From NCBI RefSeq assembly GCF_004151275.2, contig NZ_CP130821.1, positions 2,356,001-2,420,000 on the forward strand: a stretch of 64,000 nt of DNA, given 5' to 3'. Source of the stretch: Flavobacterium dauae (lineage in GTDB: Bacteria; Bacteroidota; Bacteroidia; Flavobacteriales; Flavobacteriaceae). Each line of letters starts with the position of its first letter. Positions within the stretch are counted from its first letter, which is position 1. The notes under the pieces were generated by a model. The model saw only the letters and a program-made list of their open reading frames with translations. It was not told where the DNA came from and searched no databases. Positions 46,905-56,173 of this stretch are shown piece by piece. The translations under genes and the position numbers were made by a program.

Positions 46905-47678
46905 CTATTTATGCAAAGTATTTTCGTTTATAGTGTACGATTGATGGTTGATGTTGTTTTTACGATGAAAGGTGTCGTTGTAAATATATCCTTGGGCATC
47001 TTTCCTTAATAAAGGTAATGGATTGAAATTTCCTTTGGCATCAAACTGCTTAATAAAATCATCTTTGGTTTCATCGTAATCGGGATGTTGCCAATCGTAT
47101 TTATATTCGGGTTCGAACTGAGGTCTTTTTAACATATACGAAAGAAGGAATCCTGAAATAAATCCAGCCAAATGTCCTTGCCACGAAATACCTTCTTCAA
47201 CATCGGGCAGCATATACCAAACCGAACCGCCGTACAAAACAATCATTAAAAACGAAATTGCCATTAAACGATACTGTTTGCTGCGAATTCCCGTAAAAAA
47301 CATATAGGCAGTTAAAACGTAAATTAATCCGCTGGCACCAATATGTGTTCCTGTTTTTGCAATAAGCCACGTACCAATGCCCGATAGCACAATACCACCA
47401 AAAACAAGCGTTTGCCAGTTTTTATAATAGTAGTAACAAATTAAAGGAAGTAATACCGCTAAAGCTAAGGTGTTGTTCCATAAATGTTGAATGGATCCGT
47501 GTAAAAATGGCGAAAAAAGTACACCGCGCAAACCTTTAAATGTTCGTGGTACGATTCCGAAATTGTTAAACTGAAAAAAATAACGCCAATCTAAATAATA
47601 AATCAACCAGATCACCAAAAGTGAAACAAACGGAACCCAAAAAACTTGCGGACGGTATTTTAATTGATCTATTTCCAT
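46905..47678 (-). CDS. Rhomboid intramembrane serine protease
   Basis: 257 residues, six or seven membrane helices in the first 185. Catalytic serine S116 in GASGLIY and histidine H169 in GHLAGFISGF; the HGSIQHLWNN motif (60-69) of helix 2 is intact. The C-terminal 70 residues are soluble. Cleaves membrane proteins near or in the bilayer; substrates unknown. Confidence 0.9.
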   Translation of the reverse strand: MEIDQLKYRPQVFWVPFVSLLVIWLIYYLDWRYFFQFNNFGIVPRTFKGLRGVLFSPFLHGSIQHLWNNTLALAVLLPLICYYYYKNWQTLVFGGIVLSGIGTWLIAKTGTHIGASGLIYVLTAYMFFTGIRSKQYRLMAISFLMIVLYGGSVWYMLPDVEEGISWQGHLAGFISGFLLSYMLKRPQFEPEYKYDWQHPDYDETKDDFIKQFDAKGNFNPLPLLRKDAQGYIYNDTFHRKNNINHQSYTINENTLHK

Positions 47679-50007: not shown

Positions 50008-51285
50008 ATGAAAGCACCATTAGCAGAGCGTATCCGTCCAAAAACGCTAGAAGAGTATATTAGCCAGTCACATTTAGTTGGCGAAACCGGAATTTTAACA
50101 CAGAACATTAAACGCGGCATTATTCCTTCAATGATTTTTTGGGGACCGCCCGGAACAGGTAAAACCACACTTGCCGAGATTATCGCTCAAGAAAGCAACC
50201 GTCCGTTTTATACACTTAGTGCAATTAATGCCGGGGTAAAAGACGTACGTGAAGTAATTGAAAAAGCCAAAGGCAGCGGCGGATTGTTTACGCCTAAAAA
50301 TCCTATTTTGTTTATCGATGAAATTCACCGTTTCAGCAAATCGCAACAAGATTCTCTGTTGGCAGCTGTTGAAAAAGGGTGGGTTACGCTGATTGGTGCT
50401 ACGACCGAAAATCCGAGTTTTGAGGTAATTCCCGCATTGCTATCGCGTTGTCAGGTTTATACTTTAAATGCGTTTACAAAAGTCGATTTAGAAACTTTGT
50501 TAAACCGTGCCATAAAAGTTGATGAAGAATTACAATCAAAAAACATTGTGATTAAAGAAAACGAAGCTTTATTCAGAGTTTCAGGTGGCGATGGCAGAAA
50601 ATTATTGAATACTTTTGAATTAATTGTAAATTCGATTGGTGATGAAACCGTTGAAATTACCAACGAAAAAGTACTGCAAATTGTTCAGAAGAACACGGTA
50701 TTGTATGATAAAACTGGCGAACAACATTATGATATCATATCGGCCTTTATCAAATCTATTCGCGGAAGCGATCCCAACGGAGCCGTTTACTGGTTAGCCC
50801 GAATGATTGAAGGCGGCGAAGATTTAAAATTCATTGCCCGAAGATTGGTTATTTCGGCTTCAGAAGATATTGGTTTGGCAAATCCAACGGCAATTATTAT
50901 GGCAAATAACATCTTTCAGTCGGTATCTGTTATTGGTTATCCCGAAAGTAGAATATTATTGAGCCAGTGTGCTATTTATTTGGCAACATCGCCCAAAAGC
51001 AACACAAGTTATATGGCAATTGGCAAGGCACAAGCAGCAGTAAAACAGACCGGAGATTTATCGGTTCCGATTCATTTGCGAAATGCTCCTACTAAATTAA
51101 TGAAAGAGCTGGGTTATGGCGAAGATTACAAATACAGCCACGATTATCCCGGCAATTTTGCCTATCAGGAATTTTTACCAGACGATTTGACAAATACTCC
51201 TTTTTATGAACCCGGAGAAAATGCACGTGAAAAACAAACCAGAGATTTTTTGCACCAACGCTGGCAAGGGAAATATAGGTATTAG
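50008..51285 (+). CDS. rarA: Replication-associated recombination protein RarA (MgsA)
   Basis: 425 residues. AAA+ clamp-loader-like ATPase: Walker A GPPGTGKT (46-53), Walker B FIDEIH (102-107), sensor 1 around [11 protein letters not shown], arginine finger in LLSRC, then the tetramerisation domain to the end. Acts at stalled replication forks. The last 50 codons occur a second time 2.8 kb downstream (53948-54097) with 94% identity. This is the intact copy, but it has lost the terminator, which stayed with the fragment. Confidence 0.95.
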
Positions 51286-51312
51286 ATAAAAAATTTAACA
51301 CTGTAATGACTA

Positions 51313-52335
51313 CTATTTTTCTTTCAACCACAAACTTACTCTTACTAATAATATCAATACAGGAACTTCCACAAGAGGACCAATAACACCTACAAATGCC
51401 TGTGGCGAATGAATGCCAAACACAGCTATCGCTACAGCTATCGCTAATTCAAAATTGTTGCCTGTGGCTGTAAATGCTATGGATGCGTTTTTGTCGTAGG
51501 GAATTTTTAGAGATTTGTTGATAAAGAAGCTCACAAAAAACATTAATATAAAATAGATTACTAACGGTATGGCAACTTTTACCACATCCATTGGTAACTC
51601 TACTATTTTATCGCCTTTTAAGCTAAACATCAGCACGATAGTAAATAACAAAGCATATAAAGTAATAGGCGAAATAGCAGGGACAAATTTTCTATTATAC
51701 CATTCTATACCTTTTGATTTGATAAGGAAATAACGGCTTAGAAAACCTGCCAAGAAAGGAATGCCTAAATATATCAATACGCTTTCTGTTACATCTTTCA
51801 TTGATACGCTTACATTGAAATTGGCTAATCCTAATTTATTTGGTAATACGTTGATGAATAACCAAACTAAGAAGCTGTAAGAAAGTACCTGAAAGATACT
51901 GTTTAATGCGACTAACATCGCTGTATATTCTCTGTTGGCTTTTGCCAAATCACTCCATACGATTACCATTGCGATACATCTTGCCAAACCTATCAGTATT
52001 AGACCTGCCATATAATCGGGTTCGTTCCTTAAAAACAGAACGGCTAACCCGAACATCAGCAGGGTACCGATAACCCAATTCATAATTAAGGATATGCCGA
52101 TTACTTTTTTATCTTTAAATGCTTGGGGCAATAATGTATAATCTACCTTTGCCAATGGCGGATACATCATCAGTATCAAACCTATTGCCAAAGGAATATT
52201 GGTCGTACCTATGGACAAGCTGTCTGTTATATTGGAAATATTAGGAAAGAAATAACCCAAGCCCACACCAAACGCCATTGCAAGGAATATCCATAAGGTG
52301 AGGTAACGGTCAAGAAATTTTAGTTTTGGTTGCAT
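51313..52335 (-). CDS. arsB: ACR3 family arsenite efflux transporter
   Basis: 340 residues, ten membrane helices. The conserved cysteine C120 in [14 protein letters not shown] of helix 4 is present. Exports arsenite by proton antiport. Starts 3 bp after the arsC-like gene. Last gene of the ars unit; 27 bp separate its stop from that of rarA, with no terminator between. Confidence 0.95.
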
Positions 52336-52338
52336 CGG

Positions 52339-52953
52339 TTATTTTTTAATCATTGAAAAAACATAGAACATTTCCGTTGCTATCTGCAAACTCCTTTCTG
52401 CATATACCTTTGATTGCTCCAGTGTATTGTCCGATATTTTAGGGTCTTCAAATGTGATAGGTATTTTTTTTTCCGCACCTGCAATAAACGGACATCCACC
52501 GTCTGCCTGTGAACAGGTCATAATGGCTACAAATGCAGATACTGGGTTGAACGGACTATCATATTTTTTGGAAAAACCGATTACAGGTAAAGCATTGTCG
52601 CTGTATTTTATGGCATATACAGGATTATTATTGTCTGTAATTTTGAAGATGCTAAAACCCTGATTGGTCAATGTTTCTGCGACTTTTGGGAATAGTGCCG
52701 TTTCTTCCGTACCACCCGAATAGCAATATACGTTTAGAATATTAAAATGTGCTGCTGCTACCTGTGCCCAAACCTGTGATAAATGGCTTCTTCGGGAATT
52801 GTGGGTACAGATGAAATTGATATTTATATCCTGCTTGTTGTGTACTTTTTGCTGTACAAAATCTACCAAGGATTGTAATATGGTTTTACGTTCTTCGCTG
52901 ATGTTTTGAACAGTAATATTATTGTTAATGGTATCGGCTAATTGTTTGTACAT
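52339..52953 (-). CDS. arsC: Arsenate reductase/protein-tyrosine-phosphatase-like
   Basis: 204 residues. A low-molecular-weight phosphatase P-loop C49-x5-R55 in FICTHNSRRS, with a further cysteine pair in CSQADGGCPF for the redox relay. The N-terminal helical extension of about 40 residues is characteristic of the Bacteroidota type. Reduces arsenate to arsenite for the exporter. Confidence 0.9.
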   Translation of the reverse strand: MYKQLADTINNNITVQNISEERKTILQSLVDFVQQKVHNKQDININFICTHNSRRSHLSQVWAQVAAAHFNILNVYCYSGGTEETALFPKVAETLTNQGFSIFKITDNNNPVYAIKYSDNALPVIGFSKKYDSPFNPVSAFVAIMTCSQADGGCPFIAGAEKKIPITFEDPKISDNTLEQSKVYAERSLQIATEMFYVFSMIKK

Positions 52954-52972
52954 AATAATTGTTATTTAGATT

Positions 52973-53437
52973 TTAGCAACATCCCGAATTGGGTGTACAG
53001 CAAGCATTATTCAGCTCTGATAATTTTACTTTCTGTTTTTCGGCAGGAATACCGCAGGCATCACTTGCCAAACAAGCGGTTTGTTTGTTCTTCAGTACAA
53101 AGTGATTTCCGTTAAAATCCAAGTCGTATTTACCAACTGTTTCGCTTTGATATTCTACTTCTATTTCGGCATCCTCAATACCTAATTTTTCTTCGGATAA
53201 TTTGATGATGCTTAATAGTTTGGTTGGCTTTAGTCGGTGTTCAAAATCGTTGGCATTCCATAATTGAAAATTGACAACTTTTTCATTACGGATTGTTCCG
53301 CCACAATCAATGAAATGTTTTGTGATTACGCCTACTTCTGTAACGTGAAAGTGTTCAGGTACGAATGCTCCGTTCTCTAATTGAAATTCAACATTATCCA
53401 ATGCTGGTAAGATTTCTTTGATTTTTGATAGTTTCAT
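52973..53437 (-). CDS. DUF6428 family protein of ars operons
   Basis: 154 residues, soluble. The conserved start MKLSKIKEILPALDNVEFQL and HVTEVGVITKHFIDCGG strip match DUF6428. The C-terminal end NNACCTPNSGCC carries four cysteines in two CC pairs, in addition to CLASDAC nearby. Such cysteine clusters fit binding of arsenite or another thiophile, as a chaperone; this is inference. Between arsR and arsC. Confidence 0.85.
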   Translation of the reverse strand: MKLSKIKEILPALDNVEFQLENGAFVPEHFHVTEVGVITKHFIDCGGTIRNEKVVNFQLWNANDFEHRLKPTKLLSIIKLSEEKLGIEDAEIEVEYQSETVGKYDLDFNGNHFVLKNKQTACLASDACGIPAEKQKVKLSELNNACCTPNSGCC

Positions 53438-53495
53438 TGTTTTTTTATTTAATTGTTATATTGCTTTATTACGATTGATATGCTCAAAAAAATGC

Positions 53496-53825
53496 TTAAC
53501 AGCATTTATCAACACCCACATTATCTATAAAGAAAGTAGTGAGTTCTTTTTTAAGCTGTTGCCAAACATTTTCATCAATACAATAACACACGCTTGTTCC
53601 CTCTATATTTCCTTTGATGATACCAATGTTTTTAAGCTCTTTTAAATGTTGCGAAATCGTAGCCTGCGCCAATCCTAATTCTTCCACTAAGTCATTACAA
53701 ATACAAGCATTCTGCTTAACAATATATTGTAAAATAGCGATACGGGCAGGATGAGCCAATGCTTTTAAGGAGATTGCCAGGCTATTTTGCTGTTCTGTAA
53801 ATATTTCTGTTTTTGTTACACCCAT
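53496..53825 (-). CDS. arsR: ArsR family repressor
   Basis: 109 residues, winged HTH (LVEELGLAQATISQHLKELKNIGII). Cysteines that may bind arsenite: C41/C43 (ACICN), C80/C82 (SVCYC) and C108/C109 at the end. First gene of the ars unit. A matching inverted repeat lies just upstream. Confidence 0.92.
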   Translation of the reverse strand: MGVTKTEIFTEQQNSLAISLKALAHPARIAILQYIVKQNACICNDLVEELGLAQATISQHLKELKNIGIIKGNIEGTSVCYCIDENVWQQLKKELTTFFIDNVGVDKCC

Positions 53826-53842
53826 TTCATCTGTAGATATTC

Positions 53843-53858
53843 ATCGCAATATTACGAT
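53843..53858 (-). promoter_or_regulatory. ArsR operator
   Basis: ATCG-CAATATTA-CGAT inverted repeat within a longer imperfect ATATT...AATAT frame, 18 bp upstream of arsR. It overlaps a TAATATTG -7-like box on the minus strand, as expected for an ArsR/SmtB repressor site. Confidence 0.6.
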
Positions 53859-53923
53859 AAAAAAATATAATCATACAAAAAATTAAAAAAATATTTCTTA
53901 TAACATTTTAGGGAGATTATTTA

Positions 53924-54097
53924 ATGAATCAGAAAATAATTAGGGATAGCCACGATTATCCCGGCAATTTTGCCTATCAGGAATTTTTACCGGACGATTT
54001 GACAAATACGCCTTTTTACGAACCCGGAGAAAATGCCCGCGAAAAACAAACCAAAGATTTTTTGCACCAACGCTGGCAAGGGAAATATAATTATTAA
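53924..54097 (+). pseudogene. Duplicate 3' end of rarA
   Basis: From 53948 to the stop at 54097 the 150 bp align without gaps to 51136-51285, with nine differences. Six are silent, counting the TAG/TAA stop; two codons change (R to K, R to N). An in-frame ATG at 53924 adds MNQKIIRD, giving a 57-residue reading frame, too short to be functional RarA. It keeps the original rarA terminator. It marks the right boundary of the inserted ars block. Confidence 0.9.
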
Positions 54098-54098
54098 A

Positions 54099-54122
54099 AA
54101 AACACTTCGTTTGAAGTGTTTT
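54099..54122. terminator. Bidirectional terminator after the rarA fragment
   Basis: AAAACACTTC (54099-54108), loop GTTT, GAAGTGTTTT (54113-54122). Probably the former terminator of rarA, convergent with the gene at 54129. Confidence 0.9.
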
Positions 54123-54128
54123 TAGTTA

Positions 54129-54542
54129 TTACTTTTTATTTAAAACCGAATATTCTAAAGCATTTTTCAACGCATCAACGTGAGATTTGTCACGTTTTTT
54201 TAAACGGCTTTCTCCATTGGCGGTAAACACCGTTTGGCTTTTGCAGTTAACCAATGTAATTTGCAACTTGGTAGCCAACATAGATTTATCTCGTTCCACA
54301 TTGCACTTCAACAGTTTACAAGGATCTGCTTTTACTTCTTGTGGTAATTCCTGATCGTCGTAAAAAACGGTGTAACCGGCTTCTTCTAATTTGTGTTTCA
54401 AAAATGAATTTACGCGGTATTCGTTAAATTCTTCCTGAAAGTTATAAACTTTTTTCATTTGAACATATTTGGCATTCAAACCTTGTGCCTGCATGCCTAA
54501 ACCTAAGCATGTAAAAAGCATTAAAAATAATAATTTTTTCAT
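54129..54542 (-). CDS. Secreted protein of unknown function
   Basis: 137 residues with a signal peptide (about 1-19, ending GMQAQ). The rest is charged, with two cysteines (CKLLKC) that may form a disulfide, and no recognised domain. It lies 1 bp after the yjjG stop and is the last gene of the operon beginning with the ABC ATPase, though a functional link is not implied. Confidence 0.65.
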   Translation of the reverse strand: MKKLLFLMLFTCLGLGMQAQGLNAKYVQMKKVYNFQEEFNEYRVNSFLKHKLEEAGYTVFYDDQELPQEVKADPCKLLKCNVERDKSMLATKLQITLVNCKSQTVFTANGESRLKKRDKSHVDALKNALEYSVLNKK

Positions 54543-55720: not shown

Positions 55721-56173
55721 TTATTTTTTATTGGTAATTACGGCGTTTTGAACATAAAAAGTCCAACCGTCTTTGTTTTTATCGTTATAAAAAAAGGTAC
55801 CTTCTAACGTAATAAAAGTATCGGTTTTTAAGCGTGGTGGTTTGTTTTTAAACTGAATTCCCATAATGGTTTCGATACCTGCATTTGTACTGCAAAAAAA
55901 ACAGTGCGAATACATATTTTTGCTTAAAACATACGATTTACTGTCTATAGGAATCACGTAACCGCTTATTTTTATTTTTTTTCCGTGTAACGATTCTTTT
56001 ATGGTATTACTATAGTTGGCCATAACTCTCATACTTTTGCTAATATTAGCTAGCACTTCCCAAGTCATCTCTGTAGGCTCTTCCTGACTATTGTTTTGAT
56101 TATTCTGCGGGGTAAATCCCATCAAAAACAATGCTGTTATTACGTACAACGTTATTATTATTTTTTTAAGCAT
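55721..56173 (-). CDS. Secreted CFFC protein, DUF3299-like (copy 1)
   Basis: 150 residues, hydrophobic N-terminus (about 1-22). Shares KISGYVIPIDSKSYVLSKN, HCFFCSTNAGIETIMGI and RLKTDTFITLEGTF with the following gene, so the two arose by tandem duplication. Its start overlaps the permease gene by 8 bp. Position suggests a periplasmic partner of the ABC transporter. Confidence 0.75.
   Translation of the reverse strand: MLKKIIITLYVITALFLMGFTPQNNQNNSQEEPTEMTWEVLANISKSMRVMANYSNTIKESLHGKKIKISGYVIPIDSKSYVLSKNMYSHCFFCSTNAGIETIMGIQFKNKPPRLKTDTFITLEGTFFYNDKNKDGWTFYVQNAVITNKK

Follow-up and report, generated by a model that had tools for sequence, protein, structure and literature searches.

An arsenic-resistance operon between two copies of the rarA 3' end in Flavobacterium dauae

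Organisation of the rarA-ars locus

The window analysed here is a stretch of 64,000 nucleotides from the complete 2.94-Mb chromosome of Flavobacterium dauae (genome label G000; contig NZ_CP130821.1, positions 2,356,001 to 2,420,000), and positions are window coordinates unless a locus is named. Behind the housekeeping gene rarA, four arsenic-resistance (ars) genes, acr3, an arsC-type phosphatase gene, a DUF6428 gene and arsR, fill 2662 bp, all on the minus strand, and are followed by a second copy of the last 150 bp of rarA. The features are as follows, with G206 denoting a second genome of the genus to which the locus was compared.

50008..51285, plus strand: rarA/mgsA, intact gene of an AAA+ ATPase (425 codons, stop TAG; domains AAA, AAA_assoc_2 and MgsA_C), with no terminator directly behind it
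51136..51285, plus strand: left copy (L) of the repeated rarA 3' end, from sequence alignment
51289..51315, no strand: left junction flank, its last 3 nt being the acr3 stop; 22/27 identical to the G206 rarA locus
51313..52335, minus strand: acr3, arsenite efflux transporter (TIGR00832, 441.6 bits against a cut-off of 282.8; SBF)
52339..52953, minus strand: arsC-type phosphatase or arsenate reductase-like protein (weak arsenate reductase family matches, below the NCBIfam cut-off)
52973..53437, minus strand: DUF6428 protein of the ars operon (PF20001, 226 bits)
53496..53825, minus strand: arsR-family repressor (HTH_5; NF033788 above cut-off)
53859..53947, no strand: right junction flank, from a conserved motif upstream of arsR to the fragment, from its shuffle score against the G206 rarA locus
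53924..54097, plus strand: 57-codon open frame, upstream ATG plus rarA fragment (stand-alone relatives P0001, P0002 and P0005)
53948..54097, plus strand: right copy (R), last 49 codons and stop of rarA, from sequence alignment
54099..54122, plus strand: terminator hairpin, resembling that behind single-copy rarA in G309, G306, G404 and G447
54129..54542, minus strand: gene for a 137-aa protein, the usual right-hand neighbour of rarA in close relatives

The first-pass annotation of this DNA had described a gap-free 150-bp repeat with nine differences around an ars operon lacking an integrase. Alignment of 51136-51285 with 53948-54097 reproduced the repeat (9/150 differences, no gap), and family scans identified the four genes between the copies, arsC weakly. 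Neither an integrase nor a transposase was found among the open reading frames (ORFs) between the copies in G000 and G206 or by family scans of the four G000 ars proteins; the interval has no ORF of at least 50 aa (G000) or at least 60 aa (G206) other than the ars genes, frames that overlap these, and the fragment. Acr3 efflux, an ArsR repressor and an ArsC-type reductase (the last a weak match, below its cut-off) occur together as in acr3-type ars operons, and the predicted function of the operon should be ordinary arsenite efflux. The counterpart of the arsC-type gene in a similar Empedobacter plasmid operon is annotated as a protein-tyrosine-phosphatase.

The similarity of the two rarA copies is far above chance (94% over 155 nt, E = 9.3e-63), and they are the sole two matches in the whole G000 genome. 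They are identical over their first 44 nt, and all nine differences fall within the last 106 nt (51180, 51198, 51207, 51225, 51228, 51242, 51278, 51279 and 51285 in left-copy positions). Five of these are silent; the others give R/K at codon 412, R/N at codon 424 (two bases) and the stop codons TAG and TAA. In both G000 and G206 an ATG further upstream is in frame with the fragment, giving a reading frame that diverges from arsR; in G206 this frame (L035 4489-4767) has lost its stop codon and runs on to 92 codons.

We conclude that the 57-codon frame is probably not a functional gene. A widespread stand-alone small gene, which the first-pass annotation had named as a finding that would count against its reading, received no support: five matches to the 57-aa frame were found in the protein collection, and a search of it with a four-sequence profile gave 108 matches at E <= 0.001, of which we inspected 17. 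Twelve of these start inside ordinary rarA sequence. Fragments thus do occur elsewhere, but three of the 17 look like the same insertion, with a junction like that of G000 or G206: P0001 starts like the G000 fragment, P0002 like the G206 fragment, and P0005, from a 33-kb metagenome contig, like the latter but two residues shorter. Amino-acid changes in P0005 at otherwise conserved places argue against a function of the fragment. The other two inspected matches are P0006, an oddly fused piece, and P0054, a stand-alone 30-aa piece of the rarA C-terminus on a 295.8-kb public contig, perhaps a decayed fragment or a broken rarA.

Occurrence in the genus

The locus of G206 (L035) has the order rarA, acr3, arsC, DUF6428, arsR, rarA 3' fragment and 54129 homologue, with 3.0 kb separating rarA from the 54129 homologue. 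Its repeat is 233 bp long, begins about 18-20 nt further 5' than that of G000 and includes a terminator. Where the rarA homology begins, close to the right junction of this locus, there is a 7-bp direct repeat (ACGGCGA), of the kind that end-joining through short homology could produce.

The comparison with related genomes that the first-pass annotation had proposed showed that relatives without the block are the rule: the distance from rarA to the 54129 homologue or yjjG is 32-533 nt, with no ars gene seen, in 32 of the 35 other members of the genus compared. The remaining three loci are the interrupted one of G206 and two, L008 (at a contig edge) and L020, that are not classifiable. All 397 genomes of the genus that are at least 99% complete match the rarA 3' end, and two ends were found only in G000 and G206. 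A 50-residue search of 398 genomes matched 379, four of them twice; G367 has two full-length rarA genes and G356 two rarA pieces, on separate contigs in each case and with no linked fragment. Across 119 rarA loci (four genomes counted twice; 85 loci with at least 3 kb downstream) no rarA 3' duplicate was found besides that of G206, and one 21-nt match was recorded, in L093. No relative with ars genes at this site and without a rarA duplicate, the second observation that the first-pass annotation had named as contrary to its reading, was found in these comparisons, and none of the open-licence papers listed in literature searches described ars genes at rarA in its title or abstract.

The two ends of rarA and probable exchange between them

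The hairpin and T-run at 54099-54122 stand behind the fragment, and the intact gene ends in AGG TAT TAG. We compared the ends of rarA in nine close single-copy relatives (G309, G306, G404, G447, G276, G107, G027, G174 and G022). In the first four of these, rarA ends in AAT TAT/TAC TAA and is followed by a [A/G]CACTTC...GAAGTG[T/C] hairpin, as in the fragment of the window; in G276 the last two codons differ and a similar hairpin follows them, and other sequence lies behind rarA in G107, G027, G174 and G022. Because four relatives share its last codons and hairpin, the fragment very probably holds the old rarA end and terminator, and the earlier claim that the original terminator had stayed with the fragment is well supported by these single-copy genes. 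We dropped the idea of a foreign origin for the final codons of the intact gene, as a GGN glycine codon occurs at position 424 in 5/9 relatives; the left copy of G206 also has a GGN codon there.

Over 147 nt, 8 sites separate the left and right copies in G000 and 4 do so in G206, and copies from different species differ at 15-18 sites. In the approximately unbiased (AU) test, a tree of these 147-nt copies joining left with left and right with right was rejected (p = 0.0016), and one joining the copies by species was not (p = 0.43). The first-pass annotation had taken the pattern of silent differences as proof that both copies evolved as real rarA genes before coming together. This claim failed: the rejected left/right tree rules out two rarA alleles that diverged before meeting, so the pattern reflects either homogenisation after the species split or separate duplications. 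The right copy of G206 moreover bears the terminator of its own left copy and not the one behind the G000 fragment, and this shared terminator, together with copies that do not sort by side, suggests exchange between the repeats. Most likely, the repeats were homogenised by gene conversion after the species split, a direction and timing that we infer. Position 51228 and the stop codon still sort left with left, as expected if homogenisation were incomplete. That the copies group by species since each species duplicated its own rarA end is an explanation that we prefer less.

Ancestry of the ars genes

The four ars genes of the window are 8-16% different from those of operons in G206 contig 33, G451 and G083, and 18-26% different from those of the G206 rarA-site operon. 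The DNA match to the G206 contig 33 and G451 operons extends from 51311 to about 53897 at about 87% identity. These two operons have the same four genes in identical order and are surrounded by topoisomerase, methylase/helicase, DUF3945/DUF4099 and DUF1896 genes (families scanned in the G206 copy), none of which accompanies the rarA block. Judging by these genes alone, we take the set to be typical of CTnDOT-type conjugative elements and call the operons integrative and conjugative element-like (ICE-like).

For arsR, sisterhood of the two rarA-site genes was rejected (AU 0.0077), the G206 gene falling in another clade with support of 92. We read the arsR discordance as an exchange that one of the two lineages made with a further ars operon, and we claim this for arsR only because no other gene attains significance; a swap of the whole operon was dropped for this reason. 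Sites shared with three ICE-like operons were in excess outside the first 100 nt (291 versus 67; 2 versus 11 inside), but we discarded this as a sign of an operon swap, since the count is inflated by the long G206 branch and the first 30 nt are unrelated in those operons.

Beside the G451 ars operon, L154 10089-15902 holds an IS1595-type transposase and frames resembling by eye genes for a beta-lactamase, an rRNA methylase and an aminoglycoside nucleotidyltransferase.

One insertion or two

G000 and G206 group together in the rpoB-locus tree (99%) and in that of five concatenated flanking genes (100%). Their junctions are also alike: against the G206 rarA locus the left flank scored 17 (best of 500 shuffles, 9) and the right flank, of 89 nt, scored 23 (best of 500 shuffles, 16), and none of nine other ars operons reached its own shuffle maximum on either junction side. 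Both left copies end in TAG, and the nine single-copy relatives in TAA or TGA. Because the junction flanks are common to both loci and absent from the nine other operons, and because the left copies share their stop codon, the comparison favours a single ars insertion in the common ancestor of G000 and G206 as what would be the simplest history.

Alternatively, two independent insertions may have struck the same spot, one per species, each duplicating the rarA end of its own host. Copies that are more alike within than between species, and the differing ancestry of arsR at the two sites, are what this history would leave, and in clostridia rarA was struck twice independently at one codon, by the account given in PMC2764570. 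We nevertheless consider it unlikely, given the junction flanks and the stop TAG common to the two sites and the grouping of G000 with G206 in most flanking-gene trees; a fresh insertion would also have retained the old terminator, which the right copy of G206 lacks.

Origin of the block

Islands at gene 3' ends are usually attributed to integrases. For the rarA-ars block we incline instead to insertion driven by homologous recombination rather than to a decayed integrase element, since the site yielded no further rarA 3' duplicate. The explanation that we favour, with somewhat better than even confidence, is a single insertion of the ars operon at the rarA 3' end by recombination, with later conversion between the repeats. 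The operon would have entered in the common ancestor of G000 and G206, in an event that kept rarA complete and left its last 50 to 57 codons a second time beyond the ars genes. This could be the work of RecA-type recombination if the incoming ars DNA bore a rarA 3' end: a circle would need a single crossover, and a linear piece homology at one end and end-joining at the other. The insert lies between direct repeats of the homologous segment, as in single-crossover (insertion-duplication) integrants. The fragment would have retained the old end and terminator, as still visible in G000, and the present end of the intact gene would have been either brought in or mutated in place. Gene conversion would then have acted between the repeats in both lineages, in G206 with the terminator included, so that the fragment there now bears the one behind the intact gene, and at least arsR would later have been exchanged with another ars operon in one lineage. 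The fragment would be both scar and recombination substrate.

Several observations weigh against a single insertion followed by conversion. The best 147-nt tree splits the G206 copies and places the right one beside distant relatives (support 18), single-gene trees of rarA and of the gene at 54129 fail to pair G000 with G206, and the raw rpoB-locus distance to G000 is smaller for G107 (5.2%) than for G206 (7.1%). The right junctions of the two species lie about 18-20 nt apart, and the junction comparison covers nine operons, with DUF6428 alone present in 368/397 genomes. Within-species grouping of the copies would be equally expected from two separate insertions. Sisterhood of the two rarA-site operons was not rejected for acr3 (AU 0.069), arsC (0.086), DUF6428 (0.325) or all four genes together (0.228). 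Finally, plasmid and phage records yielded distant rarA genes only and no donor with a rarA end and ars genes, and viral contigs gave no match.

The block also resembles a cis-mobilisable element (CIME), which the account in PMC5704250 describes as an element without integration and transfer genes but retaining attL and attR: cargo free of an integrase lies between two copies of a gene 3' end, and the gene is intact. An integrase would here have placed the ars island and a replacement 3' end at an attachment site in rarA and then been lost. The identical first 44 nt in G000, with all differences 3' of them as for a core followed by a replaced gene end, and the old terminator on the far copy agree with this. 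The G206 locus does not: its repeat starts 18-20 nt further 5' and extends through a terminator, and four sites of the 44-nt stretch differ between copies of the two species. No integrase was found between the copies in either genome, and, unlike at a site used by such elements, no related integrase element was found at rarA in the 119 loci and 397 genomes (very short repeats would escape), where a 3' duplicate recurs only in G206; the repeats also appear homogenised. We regard a decayed site-specific element as a serious but quite unlikely alternative, in which the direct repeats at the rarA 3' end (150 bp in G000, 233 bp in G206) would be the att sites. Hallmarks of a transposon were not found either: no transposase occurs among the ars-block proteins, and the repeats are direct and 150-233 bp long, with short inverted repeats inspected only loosely.

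A tandem duplication of the rarA 3' end with a separate arrival of the ars genes between the copies is barely credible: bacteria can form small tandem duplications in the absence of flanking repeats, as PMC3784515 reports, but two coincident events at one spot would be required, and no relative with the duplication alone was found. Beyond the recombination origin that we favour, the rarA repeats might act as an attachment site without an integrase, with recombination keeping them alike, circles that carry a rarA end and the ars block leaving and re-entering rarA in related species, and ars alleles being swapped at one address; this extension is very unlikely on present indications.

Relation to known systems

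In two Clostridium species, according to the account in PMC2764570, a toxin-gene cluster interrupts rarA at codon 102 and contains a complete second rarA. As far as that account goes, the present case is alike in that rarA was the target, an intact rarA stands beside a broken copy and two species are affected; it differs in that the duplication covers only the last 49-57 codons, on either side of a 2.7-kb ars block, in unrelated bacteria. Natural transformation produces tandem duplications that PMC3784515 describes as mostly at least 100 kb long, unstable and laboratory events. These would share with our locus, on that description, donor pairing at one homologous place with joining at another and repeats of host DNA, and one clone had a small additive insertion, whereas the rarA-ars structure is small and common to two species.

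The rarA-ars block is a modest new example within a known class of insertion. Two species carry a small resistance block at one fixed position, with no integrase, and its flanking repeats appear to have gone on exchanging sequence. Whether cargo at a housekeeping gene can be kept, lost and replaced through homologous recombination alone can be tested directly on this locus. Caution is also called for, as the similarity of flanking repeats is an unsafe guide for dating an insertion or for inferring a foreign allele.

Neighbouring regions

To the right of the block, the gene at 55721-56173 differs by 2.2% between G000 and G206 and its neighbours by 7-17%, which suggests a recent exchange of this gene between the two species. 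To the left, between a rhomboid-like gene (46905-47678) and rarA, the segment 47752-49901 holds two YeeE/YedE-like genes (weak family matches), a 96-aa ORF and a Crp-like regulator. G206 has a different, lipoprotein-like gene at the matching position, and in G107 a block similar to this segment is located 0.6 kb from another ars operon (L157).

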